DNA of 40,298 bases from Ectobacillus funiculus (GTDB lineage Bacteria > Bacillota > Bacilli > Bacillales > Bacillaceae_G). The stretch spans positions 1 to 40,298 of the forward strand of contig NZ_SCFM01000022.1 in assembly GCF_004138295.1 (NCBI RefSeq). Reading direction: 5' to 3'. Position 1 is the first letter of the stretch. Every line of letters begins with the position of its first letter. A model generated the notes under the pieces. It did no database searches, was not told the DNA's origin, and saw only the letters and a list, made by a program, of their open reading frames with translations. Shown here piece after piece: positions 8,979 to 16,241 of this stretch. The position numbers were made by a program, and so were the translations under genes.

Positions 8979-10388
8979 ATGAGTTATACGAATGAAAAAG
9001 TAACCGATTTAAAAATCGCTTATATCGGCGGAGGTTCCAAAGGATGGGCTTGGGGATTGATGAGTGACCTTGCGATGGAAGATACGCTTTCGGGTAAGGT
9101 GAAACTGTATGATATCAATTATCAGGCTGCCTATCAAAATGAACTAATTGGGAACCGTCTACATGATCGGACGGATGTAGCTGGAAAATGGGAATATGAA
9201 GCTGTTAAAACATTAGAGGATGCCTTAACGGGGGCTGACTTTGTCATTATCTCCATTCTCCCTGGGTCGTTTGATGAGATGGAATCCGATGTTCATTTAC
9301 CGGAAAAGTATGGTGTGTATCAATCTGTAGGGGATACGGTTGGTCCTGGTGGTTTGGTTAGGGCTTTACGAACAATTCCGATTTTTGTGGATTTAGCCCA
9401 ACAGGTTCGGGAGCATGCACCAAATGCTTGGGTGATTAATTATACTAATCCAATGAGCCTTTGTACACGGGCTTTATATGCGACGTTCCCAGAAATTAAA
9501 GCAATTGGCTGCTGTCATGAAGTGTTTGGAACACAAAAGTTGCTAGCGTCTATGGTAGAAGAGTTATTGGGAGTAGAGGACGTGAAGCGTCAAGAGATTA
9601 AGGTCAATGTGTTAGGTATTAATCATTTTACGTGGATTGATCAGGCTTCCTATAAAGGGATTGATTTGTTTCCGTTGTATGAACAGTTTGTAGACAAATA
9701 TTATGAAAGTGGTTTTGAAGGATCGGAGAAAGGCCATTGGATGAATAATCATTTTGCCTCAGCGGAGAGGGTGAAATTTGATTTATTTAAACGTTTTGGC
9801 TTGATTGCAGCGGCAGGGGATCGTCATTTAGCTGAATTTATGCCGAATACGTGGTATTTAACAAATCCTGAAACCGTAAGAGAGTGGAAATTCGGGTTAA
9901 CGCCTGTTGCCTGGCGTAAGAAAAATAAACAAGCATTAGTAGAAAAAAGTAATCGGTTAGCTACTGGCGCTGAGCCGTTTGAACTAAAACCAACAGGAGA
10001 AGAAGGTATTGATATCATTAAAGCTCTTCTAGGCTTGGGTGAATTTATTACTAATGTGAATGTACCGAATCAAGGCCAAGTAAGGGGGATTCCAAATGGG
10101 GCAGTGGTAGAGACGAATGCTGTTCTTAGTTATAGCAGTGTCCGTCCAGTACTCGCTGGTGAATTGCCAAAACCTGTTCAAAATCTGGTGATGCGCCATG
10201 TAATGAATCAAGAAACCACCCTACAAGCTGCGCTTCAAAAGAATAAGGACTTAGCATTCCAGGCCTTTGTACAGGATCCTTTGCTAAGTACACTTAAACC
10301 TGATGAAGCTATCAAACTATTCGATGAAATGTTGGCTAACACTGCCCGCTTTTTGGATGGATGGAACCTTAAAGTTCATACAAGCTGA
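8979..10388 (+). CDS. lplD: GH4 glycosidase, alpha-galacturonidase type
   Basis: This 469-aa cytoplasmic hydrolase of glycoside hydrolase family 4 uses NAD and a divalent metal. The Rossmann loop IAYIGGGSKG is at 13-22, NYTNPM at 154-159, the metal-binding CCHEVFG at 178-184 (Cys179) and GINHFTW at 213-219 (His216). CHEVFGTQ in place of the CHSVQ of alpha-galactosidases, and the GSKGWAWGLMSDL start, resemble B. subtilis LplD, which releases galacturonic acid from alpha-galacturonides. GGAGGAG sits 6 bases before the ATG at 8979; an earlier in-frame ATG at 8964 overlaps that site. No transporter or galacturonate genes follow, so the gene and its AraC regulator form a stand-alone unit. The substrate is inferred from similarity. 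Confidence 0.82.
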   Translation: MSYTNEKVTDLKIAYIGGGSKGWAWGLMSDLAMEDTLSGKVKLYDINYQAAYQNELIGNRLHDRTDVAGKWEYEAVKTLEDALTGADFVIISILPGSFDEMESDVHLPEKYGVYQSVGDTVGPGGLVRALRTIPIFVDLAQQVREHAPNAWVINYTNPMSLCTRALYATFPEIKAIGCCHEVFGTQKLLASMVEELLGVEDVKRQEIKVNVLGINHFTWIDQASYKGIDLFPLYEQFVDKYYESGFEGSEKGHWMNNHFASAERVKFDLFKRFGLIAAAGDRHLAEFMPNTWYLTNPETVREWKFGLTPVAWRKKNKQALVEKSNRLATGAEPFELKPTGEEGIDIIKALLGLGEFITNVNVPNQGQVRGIPNGAVVETNAVLSYSSVRPVLAGELPKPVQNLVMRHVMNQETTLQAALQKNKDLAFQAFVQDPLLSTLKPDEAIKLFDEMLANTARFLDGWNLKVHTS

Positions 10389-10503
10389 CAATTGTGAAGT
10401 TAGACCGATTCTAGTATAAAACTCAACTTGACACATAAGGCCTAATTATTTATTAATATGCTAGAAAAGACTAAAAGCTAAGAGACTAGTTTCAAGCAGA
10501 GCA

Positions 10504-10530
10504 GGCGCATGAATCATTCATGCGCCCTAT
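10504..10530 (+). terminator. hairpin after lplD
   Basis: An 11-bp perfect stem (GGCGCATGAAT pairing with ATTCATGCGCC) has a one-base centre. The run after it (CTATGTTGTTG) is poor in T, so termination may be weak or the hairpin may serve another role. Confidence 0.5.
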
Positions 10531-10608
10531 GTTGTTGAAAAACGTAGCGACAGAAGTAGTATCACTAAAGTTTATTTTGTATGGACAAACCGATGATTGG
10601 GCAAAATT

Positions 10609-10639
10609 TTTCAAACTTTTATTGTATTTGCACCAGAAC
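10609..10639 (-). mobile_element. solo IS6-type end
   Basis: TTTCAAACTTTT followed by ATTGTATTTGCACCAGAAC is nearly identical to 24112-24142. No transposase is adjacent. Confidence 0.5.
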
Positions 10640-10782
10640 TAAACAAGTTATATGTTTGTTTAGATTTGTTCACAACAATATGTACTAGAAGCATTAAGCC
10701 TAGCATATAAACTAATATAACTGTGTAACTTTTATATTAAAAAGAATTAAAAGAAAAACTATTACATATAGCCACAGACTCA

Positions 10783-10810
10783 GGCGGGAGAAGGAATCTC
10801 CTGCCTTTTC
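10783..10810 (+). terminator. orphan terminator-like hairpin
   Basis: GGCGGGAGA (10783-10791) pairs with TCTCCTGCC (10797-10805, one G-T pair) and is followed by TTTTC. No gene is seen just upstream, so it may end a small RNA or be a relic. Confidence 0.45.
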
Positions 10811-10849
10811 AGTACATAAAATTTGAAAGTTTGCGAGAAAATCACGGGT

Positions 10850-11300
10850 TAGACAAGGAAAAATACTCAAAAAAGCTGAAACATTAAAAATAATTGCACA
10901 TAAAAGTATAAGGATTATGATACATAAAATCTAATAAATAAAAATAACTGAATTTTCTATTAATAATCAGAAATTTTATAAAATATGAGATAATTATCCA
11001 CATTTTATAAAAATCTATAAACATTTAATAAACACTATCCAGATAAATCACATATTACACAGACATCATTAAGATTATTTGTGTTTTTGGGTATAAACTT
11101 CATTCATATCAAGCCTTCTATGTTTTTATATCCACATTTTGCTTTCTTTATCGGCCATATAAACAGAAGTATTTCTAAATCCACATATCTCTTTAAGCTT
11201 TTTTGTTTTATAAGTGGGGTATATAAGTATCTTGTGCATTGTTGAACAAAGAATTTTATTCACAGTCAAGAGAACCCATTATAAAGTTTGTATAATTATT
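10850..11300. other. AT-rich region with DnaA boxes, candidate origin
   Basis: This gene-free stretch is strongly AT-rich. It carries TTATCCACA at 10994-11002 (the consensus DnaA box) and TTATTCACA at 11256-11264 (matching TTWTNCACA). TATCCACA and ATCCACA near 11129 and 11179 and TTGTTCACA near 10668 are weaker matches. It lies just past the 3' end of the 551-aa gene, whose 5' end faces the iteron array. DnaA boxes next to AT-rich DNA and iterons are usual parts of plasmid origins, so replication function is a reasonable inference, not shown. Confidence 0.45.
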
Positions 11301-11379
11301 TGCTGTGTATAGCGGAAAATCAAGACCTAAATCCATCTCCAAATGGGATCTGTTGCTTTCATAAAATATCTAAGCATGA

Positions 11380-11423
11380 CAAAAAGCCCTCATAACAGCT
11401 TATTTTTTTCAGCTGGAGGGCTT
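11380..11423 (-). terminator. terminator of the 551-aa gene
   Basis: On the minus strand AAGCCCTC and an inner CAGCT pair with their complements (arms 11384-11400 and 11411-11423), followed by TTTTTG. It lies about 55 bases past the stop at 11478. Confidence 0.75.
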
Positions 11424-11477
11424 ATCACCATGAAGAGATCTGGCTAGAATTTTTGCTCCACAAATAAAGGGAGCTGT

Positions 11478-13133
11478 TTACACCAGAACTTCCCATTCTC
11501 TCTGGACACGGGGTTTGCGTAATGTTTGTTCCAATTCTGCGAGGAATGCTGTGAGATCAAAATCCCTTGGCGGATAGAGAACACGCATTGGAGCTTGTGG
11601 GAGATGCTCGATTTTCTTGAGCATTTCTTCCCGTAAATGACCTGGCACAGTATTTCCTTTGTAGTGGAGCTTCTTTCTTAACTCAGCCTCCAATTGGAAA
11701 TATGAATGCAACTCAGCCCCATGCTTACATGCATAATCACGGAATAAAGCTTCTTCTGGATAGCGGATGTCTCTCTCATAGTACATTTCTTCCTGAAGCG
11801 GAACCATATATTTTTGTTGTAGCACTTCTTGTGCGGCAGTAAATAACTTTTTAATACTGCGTACAGAGTGCATGGAATAACGATTACCGAACTGGAACAA
11901 AGCTTCTTCTGCCATAGAGGCCTTCACGTTATGGGTGATGAGTGAATAAATGCCTGTCTTGGCAGCTACATCTAAAACTCTGTGATGAAATGCTTTACGA
12001 ACAAGTTTATGTAAAACAACTTCTAAGTTATCAGGCTGGCCATTACCTGCAATTAGCATACGAAGGCGTCTTAACACTTCTCGCGTTTGCATATGGCATG
12101 TATGTTTTAGTACATTGATGAACTGGTTCATATGTATAGCTAAGTCACCCAGATGCAGTTCTTGCAATGATTTTTCGATAAAGGCAGCTTTACGCTTATA
12201 AATCGCTTTTGGTCGTAACCAATTACGATAAGTCTCTGCATTGGAAGATTCGTTCGCAGACCGTAGTTGTTTGTTAACGGATACAATTAATTTGTTGAAT
12301 TTTCTACTGTACTCTTTCACCAGCATACACTTCTCAAAAAGCGGGATGTTGAGAGAAGGGAGTGGTGTAGTTAACTCTTTTAAGACACCTTGAATTTGAT
12401 GCAAATGCTTCTTATGCAGGAATTGAAATAAGCCGCCCATATAAGCCTTTTGTCCTTGCAGCGTTTCCTCTGGCAGCATACGTGCTAATTCTGGACGAGT
12501 TCCTTGTTGGATACAAATGTCCAAAAATAACTTCTTCGCGGCAACGGAAAGCTTAAAGAAATCATATGTAAAGACAACAGGGTGAATAGAAGCATAGTAA
12601 TTAGGCTTCTTTGTTTCTTGATTCATAAAGTGACAAATTTCAATCGTATAGCGCCCGTACATGTTTTTCGTAGTAGAAATCACTTGATGTAAGCGTAATT
12701 TTTCCATTGCCACATAGAACTGCATATGGGAGATAGAAGCATCCCATTCTTTATAGGTAAGATATTCTTCATAGAGCTGATGAATCGTAACATCACGGAT
12801 AATACCGTTTGTGTTGCATAATTTATGTAACATAATAAAGACGTCAATAACAGCATTGGTTACACCATGCAATAGATAACTTTTAGGCTGAGCTGTCCCA
12901 AATTTGGAAGGAAGGGAAAAAGCATCCACACGAAACATACTTTTATGAATCTGTCTCTCTTCGTACGGTAAATATTTGATGTAAGCTGGTGAAGACAAAC
13001 GCTTCGCCTTGTAGTAGTTTTCTTCCATACTCTCGAGTAAATGAACCCAAGATTCTCTAGAAACTAGTACAGCATTTGTTTCAAGGCCTTTTAAACTACG
13101 TTTATTTTTTACTAATAATTGAGAGTGTGGCAC
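11478..13133 (-). CDS. unrecognised 551-aa protein, possible replication protein
   Basis: This is a large basic cytoplasmic protein that I cannot assign to a family. Residues about 90-165 (DVTIHQLYEEYLTY...AMEKLRLHQVISTTKNMYGRYTIEI) look like a winged helix, with helices then a basic turn and two beta strands. The remainder is helical and rich in His, Lys and Arg, with no membrane spans or signal peptide. The start is GTG behind AAGGAGGGG. The start region GTGTGGCACTTTTTT (plus-strand view) resembles the iteron core TGTTGCACTTTTT. The gene diverges from another unrecognised gene across an iteron array, and its far end borders a DnaA-box region. That context favours an initiator or control protein for replication; a phage or island regulator is an alternative. 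Confidence 0.6.
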   Translation of the reverse strand: MPHSQLLVKNKRSLKGLETNAVLVSRESWVHLLESMEENYYKAKRLSSPAYIKYLPYEERQIHKSMFRVDAFSLPSKFGTAQPKSYLLHGVTNAVIDVFIMLHKLCNTNGIIRDVTIHQLYEEYLTYKEWDASISHMQFYVAMEKLRLHQVISTTKNMYGRYTIEICHFMNQETKKPNYYASIHPVVFTYDFFKLSVAAKKLFLDICIQQGTRPELARMLPEETLQGQKAYMGGLFQFLHKKHLHQIQGVLKELTTPLPSLNIPLFEKCMLVKEYSRKFNKLIVSVNKQLRSANESSNAETYRNWLRPKAIYKRKAAFIEKSLQELHLGDLAIHMNQFINVLKHTCHMQTREVLRRLRMLIAGNGQPDNLEVVLHKLVRKAFHHRVLDVAAKTGIYSLITHNVKASMAEEALFQFGNRYSMHSVRSIKKLFTAAQEVLQQKYMVPLQEEMYYERDIRYPEEALFRDYACKHGAELHSYFQLEAELRKKLHYKGNTVPGHLREEMLKKIEHLPQAPMRVLYPPRDFDLTAFLAELEQTLRKPRVQREWEVLV

Positions 13134-13222
13134 TTTTTTCCCCTCCTTTCCATAATTCGTATAATTTTGCCTATGTTACAGTATAGCAGATAGCAAAATC
13201 GGAAAAGGGCGTCCTTAAAGAG

Positions 13223-14199
13223 AAAGTGCAACAATGCAACATGGGAAAAGCCCATGTGTACCAAGGGCTGAAAAAATTTTTAAAAAATTTTTAGGGAAAT
13301 GTAAGTGCCAGAATGTTGCACTTTTTAGCGAAGAAAGAAAAGAAGCTATAATTACATCAATCCAGATATATCAAGGGTTTAAAGGTGTTGCAAGTTGGAA
13401 GTTGGTCAAAGTAGGTGCCAGGATGTTGCACTTTTTTATGAAAAATCGAAATTTCACGTCAAAATAGGTGCCAGCATGTTTCGTTGCAGATAGCGGAGGA
13501 AAAGAACTTACTAAAAATGCGATAAAGCTAGATGTATCAAGGGTTGAAGGGGATTACAGGTTTAGAAGTTGGTTAAAGTAGGTGCCAGGATGTTGCACTT
13601 TTTAGCGAAAAGAAAGCAAGTTGAAAAAATAAATAAGTCCAGATGTACCAAGGGTTTGATTGGGTTGCAAAGTTAAAGATTGGTCAAAATAGGTGCCAGG
13701 ATGTTGCACTTTTTGGTAGAGGTTTGTGCCAGAGAATGAACATATTTTTAACTATAGAAGGGTTATAATTCAGTAGTAAAAAGAAATCATTGTTTGTGAA
13801 GAAGCGAATTGGTCAAAATGAATGCCAGGATGTTGCAACTTGGAGGATAAAATTGCAACTAGTAAGTATGGGTCTTGAATGAAAATGAGATGTTACGATA
13901 TGTATATAATCCAAATAGAGATGAAATGAAGAACATTGGTCAAAGTAAGTGTCAGGTTGTTACACTTTCCGAAAACGAAAAGCTGCATATTAATAAATCA
14001 ATCTAGTAAAAGTAAATCATGTGTTCGTTACTAGCTATACAGTTAGTGAAGATAAGTGCCAGGTTGTTACACTTTCCAAAAATGAACAGCCATGTACTAA
14101 TAAATCAATCTAGTAAAAGTAAATCATGTATCCATTACTAGCTATACAGTTGGTGAAGATAAGTGCCAGAATGTTGCACTTTCTATAAAAAGTGCAACA
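13223..14199. repeat. iteron-like array between divergent genes
   Basis: About ten direct copies of a 20-22-bp motif, consensus GTGCCAGGATGTTGCACTTT, begin at 13305, 13415, 13468, 13582, 13693, 13726, 13822, 13949, 14056 and 14163. The copies at 13468 and 13726 are partial. Seven of the nine gaps are 96-127 bp, mostly 107-114; the other two are 53 and 33. Many copies are preceded by TTGGTCAAAGTAG, so the conserved unit is about 35 bp. Inverted half copies (AAAGTGCAACA) bound the array at 13223-13233 and 14187-14199. Replication-origin iterons are usually closer together, so this may be an initiator-binding array, a partition site or a regulator array. No gene is supported from 13134 to 14272. 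Confidence 0.75.
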
Positions 14200-14272
14200 A
14201 AGGATAACACATGTCAGAGGATATGTTGTATGCTAAACAGAGGCAAGTTGTTCTGAGAGGGGGAAGCGTAAG

Positions 14273-15997
14273 ATGGATCATACCTTTAAAACGGCACTAT
14301 TAATTGCACGGCAGCTCTTTGGAAAAGAAGAGTCGGTGTTGTCAAAATGGCAATCATTTTATAACGATATTGAAAAAGATATGATTAACTTATACGATTC
14401 ACCTTTTATGTCTTTTTCTTTTTTGGCACTTATTAAATGGTTAAGAAAGAAGGAAAAAGAGGGTATCGAACTCTATGACATTCTTTTTAATATAGAATCA
14501 TATGTGCAAGAGATTTATTCGTATTTAGGACCGCTTATTCAACAGGAATTTGAGGATAGTCTAGACATAGTGAGGGGAGCAGCTTCTCATGAGGGTCAGG
14601 ACTTATATCAGGAAGCTTCAAGTTATTTAGAAATGAATAACACGGATGTGTTGTATTACTTACGTGATGGAATATCAAAAAATAAATTTACCTTTAGCAA
14701 AGATACGGGAAGGAAAATGTATCAGCTACCCGATAAAAAGAAGCATGTTGTTCAACTGTCTAATCATAAGGATGAAGATTTAAAGCTAAAGAGTATCGAG
14801 GATTCCATGCTTTGGGAAAGAACCATTACTAACGTTTTAAGCGCGATGGACGACTTAACAGCAGATTGCTTAGATGTAATTACAATGGCCTGGACTGAGC
14901 AAACAAACTCTTCGACGGAAATGATTCAGTTTTCTTATGAACAAGTACTGGAAGTTTGCGGTTATCATAGAAGGAAAGATGGTGCAAAAAGCTTTCGGAT
15001 TAAGGACCGTTTAGAGGTCATGAAAAGATTAGCGGCTCTAGCAAGCATATTTATTTACGTTAATGAAGATAATGAAATCGTTGTACTCAGCAATGAGGAA
15101 CAAAAGAATGATTTTTATAAGTATAAAAGGCAGCATATTAAACGATTGTTCGTATTAGAGGACATTGTGTTAGCAAAGGATATTAATACGGACGAGGTAA
15201 TAGGAATAGAGAGCTGCACAATACGTCCTTCTGAGTTCTTATCTAACTATCTCATAGGAGAAAAAAGCACTACGGCCCTGATGCCTATTAAAGCTTTGCA
15301 ATATTCTAAGGATCGTCATAAGTATCATAAGAGACTTACCCGGTATTTAAGCTGGCAATGGCGTATTCGTCAACTGAGCCGTACAACGATGTACCGTCCC
15401 TTCTCGATAGGTGGGGAGAAAGGGCTATTGTCAGTTATGGGAATAGATAGTAAGAACCATAAACCAGCTAGGTTAAAAGAAGTATTTGAAAATGTACTAG
15501 ACAACCTACAGGCTGATCATGTCATCGCTTCTTGGAGTTATCATCAGGCACTAAATGAACAAGCAATGAATCAAAGGGATTGGTTCAAGAGCTATTGGGT
15601 AAATCAACAAATTGTTATTGTGCCGCCGCAGGAGATGTTACACCTGCAGAAATCGTTGCAATGGAGACAAGAGTCTAATGAACAACAATTAGAGATATTT
15701 GCAGAATCATCGCTGGACCAGTTTGTGAGCTCAGTGAATCAAAAGCAAGAATCGCCTGTCATCGAGATTCAAAATGGTGCAAATGATGGTCAGGAAGAAT
15801 TTGAAAATATTCGTGACACTATTAATCAGTACAAAGAACAATTAAAAATTCCTTTGCGTACACTTGCGGAGGAGGTAGGTATTTCGTATTCCACGCTTTC
15901 TCGTTTTCTAAGTAATAAAACAAAGCGTATCAATGGTGATAACGTTGAAAAGATAAAGAAATGGATCAAGCATCGTGAATTGGTTGATATCCTGTAA
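14273..15997 (+). CDS. unrecognised 574-aa protein with C-terminal HTH
   Basis: Residues about 515-570 form a Cro/C1-type helix-turn-helix (NQYKEQLKIPLRTLAEEVG, then SYSTLSRFLSNKT), a clear DNA-binding domain. The middle (about 220-285, FSYEQVLEVCGYHRRKDGAKSFRI...EVMKRLAALASIFIYV) looks like a winged helix. The N-terminal third is helical and acidic. There are no membrane spans. GAGGGGG precedes the ATG. The gene is transcribed away from the iteron array, opposite the 551-aa gene, so binding of the array by its product is a natural guess. It may be an initiator, a copy-number regulator or a partition protein. I cannot name the family. Confidence 0.65.
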   Translation: MDHTFKTALLIARQLFGKEESVLSKWQSFYNDIEKDMINLYDSPFMSFSFLALIKWLRKKEKEGIELYDILFNIESYVQEIYSYLGPLIQQEFEDSLDIVRGAASHEGQDLYQEASSYLEMNNTDVLYYLRDGISKNKFTFSKDTGRKMYQLPDKKKHVVQLSNHKDEDLKLKSIEDSMLWERTITNVLSAMDDLTADCLDVITMAWTEQTNSSTEMIQFSYEQVLEVCGYHRRKDGAKSFRIKDRLEVMKRLAALASIFIYVNEDNEIVVLSNEEQKNDFYKYKRQHIKRLFVLEDIVLAKDINTDEVIGIESCTIRPSEFLSNYLIGEKSTTALMPIKALQYSKDRHKYHKRLTRYLSWQWRIRQLSRTTMYRPFSIGGEKGLLSVMGIDSKNHKPARLKEVFENVLDNLQADHVIASWSYHQALNEQAMNQRDWFKSYWVNQQIVIVPPQEMLHLQKSLQWRQESNEQQLEIFAESSLDQFVSSVNQKQESPVIEIQNGANDGQEEFENIRDTINQYKEQLKIPLRTLAEEVGISYSTLSRFLSNKTKRINGDNVEKIKKWIKHRELVDIL

Positions 15998-16241
15998 GGA
16001 GATCTAATATTTTTCCTTGGTACAGAAATTTTAATGTATGTTCGGTTGTTATCTACTGGAACTATATGGTATTATTTAAGTATACGCTTTCTTTTTTATT
16101 TTTTGACGTATTTTTAGTCTCTAGGGTTAGCGATTTAATAAAAAAGACGTATATTTCTTGTTCGTTCGTAAAAAATTTCACCATAAGTGCAACTTTATAA
16201 GAAACCAAAAAATATGGTTCATAAAGGAGTGGCAAATCAAT

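Follow-up and report, generated by a model that had tools for sequence, protein, structure and literature searches.

Organization of the locus

The window, meaning the whole stretch of DNA analysed, is the entire 40,298-base contig C63 of a source genome that comprises 5,446,075 bases in 146 contigs. Between a GH4-family gene and araD it contains two divergent genes, P0001 and P0002, which are both intact and are separated by an intergenic gap of 1139 bp. The first-pass annotation, made from the sequence alone, had described a repeat array between a 551-aa gene and a 574-aa gene, and the coordinates and strands agree with that arrangement. The remaining window proteins that were scanned belong mostly to sugar metabolism, regulators and transport, with no recognised plasmid gene among them. 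The features at the locus are the following:

10704-10771, no strand: AT-rich block that is conserved in an alignment of six P0001-type loci; candidate unwinding element
10994-11264, plus strand: three DnaA boxes (exact at 10994, one mismatch at 11128 and at 11256); candidate origin
11386-11423, no strand: inverted repeat immediately after the stop codon of P0001, found by eye; probable terminator
11478-13133, minus strand: P0001, 551 aa
13221-13241, minus strand: pair of overlapping inverted half repeats, offset by 8 bp, close to the start of P0001; candidate operator
13252-13656, plus strand: second motif CCAGATGTACCAAGGGTT in four copies (13252, 13362, 13528, 13639), 54-55 bp ahead of main repeats
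13305-14182, plus strand: nine direct repeats (iterons) of GTGCCAGGATGTTGCACTTT
14172-14199, no strand: palindrome formed by the last repeat half and an inverted half; candidate autoregulatory operator
14273-15997, plus strand: P0002, 574 aa

Copies of GTGCCAGGATGTTGCACTTT start at 13305, 13415, 13468, 13582, 13693, 13822, 13949, 14056 and 14163, the right half of the copy at 13468 being decayed, and four of these main repeats are preceded by CCAGATGTACCAAGGGTT, which the first-pass annotation had not noted. Successive spacings are 110, 53, 114, 111, 129, 127, 107 and 107 bp. The initial description of about ten copies recurring mainly every 107-114 bp thus holds for the recurrence itself and for five of the eight spacings, while the count of direct copies is nine and the remaining spacings are 53, 129 and 127 bp. 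When searched as a 20-mer with up to two mismatches, the repeat occurs six times in the 5,446,075-base genome, always within the gap between P0001 and P0002, and the reversed control gives no occurrence, so the array is not a product of chance. A placement of the repeats on one face of the DNA had also been proposed, and this was rejected against a random-phase null: the nine sites are out of helical phase, with a mean vector of 0.29 at 10.5 bp per turn that is matched or exceeded by 49% of random-phase sets.

The mirror-image ends of the array were borne out on both sides. Near P0001, a first inverted half copy at 13221-13233 is overlapped by a second one 8 bp further on, and inverted half copies about 90-119 bp from the P0001 start are also present in four relatives, in three of them with one or two mismatches. 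On the other side, the inverted half copy at 14187-14199 and the last direct copy together make a near-perfect palindrome 73 bp before P0002. This palindrome is common to the window and Ectobacillus panaciterrae, a genus mate, and no inverted half near P0002 was found at up to one mismatch in loci L025-L027.

A consensus scan for promoters and terminators returned 19 promoter-like sites (20.5 in shuffles) and one terminator-like site (3.3 in shuffles); it did not detect the inverted repeat at 11386-11423, to which a similar block exists in aligned relatives. Readings of the locus as a small-RNA array or a defence system were rejected, as 10388-16200 has no Rfam match at gathering scores and no PADLOC match was found at E 0.01. 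A phage origin was likewise rejected, since 50,697 phage records gave no match and none was confirmed in viral contigs.

The two proteins

Both genes belong to unrecognised families, as had been presumed. For P0002, NCBIfam gave no match and Pfam only two C-terminal helix-turn-helix (HTH) matches just below their cut-offs (E up to 0.001), with no match to the Rep_3 HMM; its 28 plasmid matches are annotated as helix-turn-helix or transcriptional regulator, as hypothetical, or not at all. Structure prediction was one of the checks proposed at the outset. The P0002 model (pLDDT 79.5, pTM 0.59, from a 47-row alignment) has its best Foldseek match in domains 2-3 of RctB (5tbf, E 7.9e-5, probability 1.00), followed by further RctB matches (E 4.6e-4 and 9.8e-3) and, as the next distinct protein, RepE54 (E 0.03). 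Among viral models, the best match to P0002 carries the annotation 'initiation of plasmid replication' (E 3.9e-4). The overlay of this predicted model on RctB is loose (rmsd 7.6-8.3, TM 0.44-0.52 depending on the target). With E values up to 10 allowed, the 47-row sequence profile matched 21 PDB sequences, none of them RctB and all within the C-terminal stretch of P0002 (query 497-568), where only the HTH is aligned. P0002 is therefore not assigned to the RctB or the Rep_3 family; the model suggests an initiator-like protein with an RctB/RepE-like core and a C-terminal Cro-type HTH, which would work like an iteron initiator.

P0001 has no match in Pfam or NCBIfam. Its model is poor (pLDDT 58, five-row alignment), too poor for fold assignment, and gave no structural match at E 0.001; a winged helix may be read from it at about residues 93-166. 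A relationship of P0001 to the PriCT family, to the 372-aa family (both described below) or to P0002 was rejected, as hhalign gave a probability of about 0.1 on a scale of 100.

Recurrence of the divergent pair and its partners

In a tblastn search of 72,556 plasmids, P0002 was found in 28 records and P0001 in 14. Four records contain both genes, which form a divergent pair in NZ_CP127373, CP079755 and CP045534; in NZ_CP062791 the two relatives are separated by about 23 kb. A search of 397 genomes from the order (E 1e-10) found P0002 relatives in 28 and P0001 relatives in 16, and both are divergent in five genomes besides the source (G059, G122, G224, G273, G332). With the window, the three plasmids (162, 217 and 361 kb), these five genomes, E. 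panaciterrae and contig LXTR01000046, the P0001-type loci total 11. A repeat family was found in each of ten P0001-type gaps (window, three plasmids, six genomes) in a search that had no shuffle control and gave only three or four copies in G059, G224, G332 and G273. The repeats of the three plasmids differ in sequence from those of the window, and the layouts are alike: 114-111-44-112-111-43 in L025, 113-112-44-113 in L026 and 113-111-45-113 in L027, compared with 110-53-114-111 in the window. The gap of L026 also has tandem variants, about 39 bp long, of the wide-repeat motif (L026:11031-11682).

L026 (CP079755.1, pNY3A, 361 kb) is labelled Klebsiella grimontii, has about 32.5% GC (over 360 of 361 kb) and carries a Bacillaceae-type module; the record looks misassigned or contaminated. 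Bacillaceae-type P0002 relatives are also found under the labels Flavobacteriaceae (L089, LXTR01000046.1), Pseudomonas (L119, JAGGRA010000068.1) and Arthrobacter citreus (L207, CP053689.1), which are possibly mislabelled or contaminated as well.

A scan of 84,980 species, each represented by a single genome, found P0002 relatives at 69 loci. In 59 of the 68 loci with a P0002 match above 100 bits, the gene opposite belongs to one of four partner families: PriCT_1-type (33), a 372-aa family (20), P0001 (4) and a 290-aa winged-helix type (2), leaving 9 unassigned. PriCT_1 is a domain found in replication proteins; it scored above the cut-off once each in 8 of 15 plasmids and was absent from the other 7, which include the three of P0001 type. 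The 372-aa family has no Pfam match. Repeats (at least four copies of a 16-mer with up to two mismatches) are present in 48 of 66 gaps and fewer copies in 18, compared with at most two copies, or three in one locus, in five Markov shuffles per gap. Single, scattered chromosomal homologues lacking repeats, the refuting outcome named at the outset, are not the pattern of the main P0002 family. Distant P0002 relatives in G083, G153, G173, G255, G315 and G346, with open frames of 658-699 aa located 0.81-4.4 Mb inside large contigs, form a separate subfamily.

The source genome itself has a second module on the 389-kb contig C103, where another P0002 relative (G000:C103:356836-358581, L087) is accompanied by a partner of the 372-aa family (E 8e-152) and by different repeats spaced 100-121-43-120. 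An excess of 43-46 bp spacings, sought after inspection of the data, was seen at 12 of the 26 nonredundant loci that have four or more copies (5.0 expected, sd 1.9); under the settings used, the window is outside the 12. The gap of L116 has eleven steps of 43-44 bp.

The sequence of the repeats follows P0002. In a tree built from 47 P0002 proteins, one from the window and the others from 46 of the 69 loci, partner labels change 8 times (minimum 4, shuffled mean 21.7). The 372-aa partner has a clade of its own, plus four rows (L103, L104, L116, L117) nested among PriCT-type relatives; a fifth row, L149, sits on a long, unsure branch and carries none of the motifs. All four nested loci have TGGTGCATTTTT, and three of them have at least two copies of ACAGGTTCCGCT (L116 has one), as do many of their PriCT-type sisters. 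Among the remaining 372-aa loci, those that carry TGTGAAAGGAAACGTC (12 of 20) lack ACAGGTTCCGCT and contain a single TGGTGCATTTTT at most. When two or more copies on either strand are required, TGGTGCATTTTT is found in 31/33 PriCT, 7/20 372-aa, 2/2 290-aa and 1/4 P0001 loci, counts that include many closely related loci. The repeat sequence tracks P0002, not the partner, where the partner differs, and the simplest reading is an exchange of partners opposite a resident initiator and its iterons.

P0001 in turn seems to be common to several initiators, as indicated by initiator-type neighbours and compact iterons at loci without P0002. Ten genes neighbouring P0001 relatives without an adjacent P0002 were scanned, and seven are not recognised initiators. 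Rep3_N was above the cut-off in two, L029 (27.0 vs 22.4 bits) and L290, the latter together with Rep3_C, in a gene that is about 2 kb downstream on the opposite strand; an RPA match in L287 was just below (26.4 vs 27). The others comprise one beta-lactamase-family gene, one weak DUF match and five without a match, one of which (L032) is annotated in its record as replication initiator protein A. Compact iterons of 22 or 31 bp are present in 4 of 11 upstream gaps of such relatives (L029, L032, L287, L289). On a Priestia koreensis plasmid (L033:1836-21461), the P0001 relative is surrounded by ThiF and Mov34/MPN annotations, with an E2-type gene in one of two clusters, and a plasmid dnaN and a Rad52-type gene are also near.

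A candidate origin past P0001

An AT-rich DnaA-box region past the 551-aa gene had been noted at the outset. Its three boxes were recovered, all on the plus strand; across the whole window, the 13 such boxes do not exceed what shuffles give (mean 13.3). The region is on the far side of P0001, some 2 kb from the array, and recurs in relatives. In the 1000 bp past P0001 of the 11 P0001-type loci, 26 DnaA boxes (up to one mismatch) were counted in 11.0 kb, compared with 69 in 216.8 kb elsewhere in those loci; this is an approximately sevenfold enrichment, summed over regions that are not independent, because six aligned ones share the AT-rich block and are partly homologous DNA. Every one of the 11 loci has at least one box there. 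Of 300 permuted 9-mers, none attains a count of 26, the highest being 15, and one exceeds the ratio.

The excess is smaller over all partner types, with 59 boxes in the 86.6 kb that follow the partner, 41 in gaps totalling 86.4 kb and 327 in 997 kb elsewhere. At 12 P0001-type loci where no P0002 is adjacent, the corresponding region has 14 boxes in 12.0 kb, compared with 58 in 173.5 kb, and 5 of the 12 have none. The iteron gaps of 13 plasmids are not DnaA-rich, containing two boxes in total by a slightly different pattern.

Plasmid context

Support from GC skew for the module as an origin is mixed. The distance between module and skew minimum, measured in 13 complete plasmid records, is within 10% of the half-length in five (W02, W06, W11, W12, W17), W10 is just over this limit and the other seven are at 0.44-0.95. 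The binomial p is 0.006 if all records are independent, which does not fully apply given the apparent close relationship of W06 and W12; a Kolmogorov-Smirnov test gives p = 0.055. Two P0001-type plasmids, W01 and W03, are among those outside the limit. The skew minimum of W03 (39.1 kb) adjoins a gene distantly related to the 372-aa family (39.7-40.9 kb, E 4e-39) and an exact DnaA box at 39.1 kb, so W03 seems to carry two replicons. In L294 (CP045534.1, 37.6-40.9 kb), a TnpB/IS605-type gene is divergent from a distant 372-aa-family gene at the GC-skew minimum, where an exact DnaA box is also present. The L025 plasmid also has a Rep_3 initiator. The typing in PLSDB names a replicon for just 3 of 18 plasmid records inspected, and MOB-suite places the three P0001-type plasmids in rep_cluster_125 (two) and 164 (one).

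In nine plasmid loci with 4-kb flanks, partition genes near P0002 relatives, where present, are separate genes. An annotated ParM/StbA gene directly follows P0002 in L199, L200 and L205 (that of L200 confirmed as Alp7A-like), an annotated ParA is about 2.7 kb from P0002 in L206, and a gene annotated as FtsZ is about 3 kb away in L202, with a tubulin match just below the cut-off (32.9 vs 33). No partition gene was found within 4 kb in L201, L203, L204 and L207. A search with Alp7A_like_C found no actin-type partition gene in the source genome and two in E. panaciterrae, both on other contigs.

A probable two-gene replication module

The most likely interpretation is a replicon of the iteron type whose initiator has gone unrecognised and whose helper is exchangeable. 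More specifically, the locus is probably a two-gene, theta-type plasmid replication module, with P0002 as initiator, P0001 as exchangeable helper and the origin beside P0001. Of the two possibilities first offered, an undescribed replicon or partition module, the former is favoured by the recurring pair, the initiator-like fold, the conserved DnaA-box and AT-rich region and the partition genes near several relatives. In such a module, the winged-helix core and extra C-terminal HTH of P0002 would bind the direct repeats as iterons, while the inverted half copies could act as operators through which both divergent genes are autoregulated. P0001 would serve as a second, exchangeable replication protein, possibly a helper of helicase-loader or primosome type. 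Opening could then take place in the AT-rich DnaA-box region past P0001, whose recurrence is observed, and the wide, roughly regular spacing of the iterons may limit copy number by looping or array pairing.

A broader proposal, for and against which the balance is about even, is that the locus represents a widespread and undescribed class of replicons of large Bacillaceae plasmids. In this proposal an RctB-type initiator would read long, wide-spaced iterons and take their sequence along in its evolution, and the second protein (P0001, PriCT-type, 372-aa or 290-aa type) would be swapped like a cassette. As P0001 would in turn pair with other initiators, such replicons would be built combinatorially.

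The locus could alternatively be a replication module by descent that is now a silent relic or a secondary origin within a chromosome or cointegrate, either kept for copy control or decaying. This is unlikely, and several observations nevertheless fit it. The pair in Priestia koreensis lies on a 4.56-Mb contig, and the P0001 match of a congener has one TGA, with a 517-aa frame remaining. Some plasmids have a second candidate initiator, the window has metabolic genes in place of recognised plasmid genes, and an ORF beside the E. panaciterrae locus presumably resembles an IS66-type transposase. Decay is argued against by the intact genes, which are 82% (P0001) and 84% (P0002) identical to their counterparts in E. 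panaciterrae, where the repeats are retained. In addition, araA of contig C63 is missing in three genus mates, a pattern as for accessory DNA and a hint only that the locus is accessory. The GC content of the window (37.8%, vs 42.2% in one 16-kb stretch of C103 that itself bears a module) is likewise only a hint on plasmid status.

The gap could also merely control transcription of two divergent regulators with no role in replication, as the Cro-type HTH of P0002 and the inverted half sites close to both gene starts might indicate; the DnaA boxes past P0001 in relatives, the initiator fold, a partner family with a replication-type domain and the presence on 28 plasmid records make this very improbable. 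Least probable of all is a partition module in which the array is a centromere and one protein its adaptor: direct-repeat arrays between divergent genes can be centromeres and partition genes are near some relatives, but neither protein has a partition ATPase/GTPase domain in Pfam (actin, tubulin or ParA-type), some relatives encode partition genes separately, the P0002 core matches initiators and the partners include PriCT_1 proteins.

If the reading as a replication module is correct, plasmids of the P0002 type would gain an initiator, a gene by which to type them and candidate origins, and RctB, until now described from Vibrionaceae, would have a Gram-positive counterpart. The module would also offer a natural system for studying how one initiator works with unrelated partners and what role wide iterons have.

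Comparison with known systems

No description of the module was found in titles or abstract openings among the literature matches listed. The closest structural parallel is RctB, which acts at ori2 of Vibrio chromosome 2. There, ori2 is an iteron origin with a DnaA site and an AT-rich region, and the RctB iterons are 12-mers with 10-11 bp between them and a GATC (PMC6090056). P0002 resembles RctB in its predicted central two-domain initiator fold, and iterons, DnaA boxes and an AT-rich region are found here too. It differs in having no sequence match to RctB, in spacings of 53-129 bp (mainly 107-114) with no GATC in the repeat, in its C-terminal Cro-type HTH and divergent second gene, and in its host, which belongs to the Bacillota and not to the Vibrionaceae.

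RepE-type replicons have direct repeats and inverted half repeats near the initiator gene. The window shares this arrangement, though the arrangement only, with direct repeats upstream of P0002 accompanied by inverted half repeats, and RepE54 is the next distinct fold match. There is no Rep_3 HMM match here and the spacing is wide. Origin-like DnaA boxes and an AT-rich region do occur and recur in relatives, at a position beyond the partner gene and not beside the iterons. A link to the PriCT_1 proteins of Gram-positive plasmids is given by the commonest P0002 partner, which has this domain, whereas Pfam gives no match for P0001, whose profile shows no alignment to those of the PriCT and 372-aa partners.

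An exchange of parts is also known from Pseudomonas, where replication and control parts are swapped among plasmid families and a control region that includes a putative antisense RNA makes up one side (PMC5304414). The swapping of parts is similar, but in the module described here, with no Rfam match in 10388-16200, both sides are protein-coding and the repeats follow one of them.
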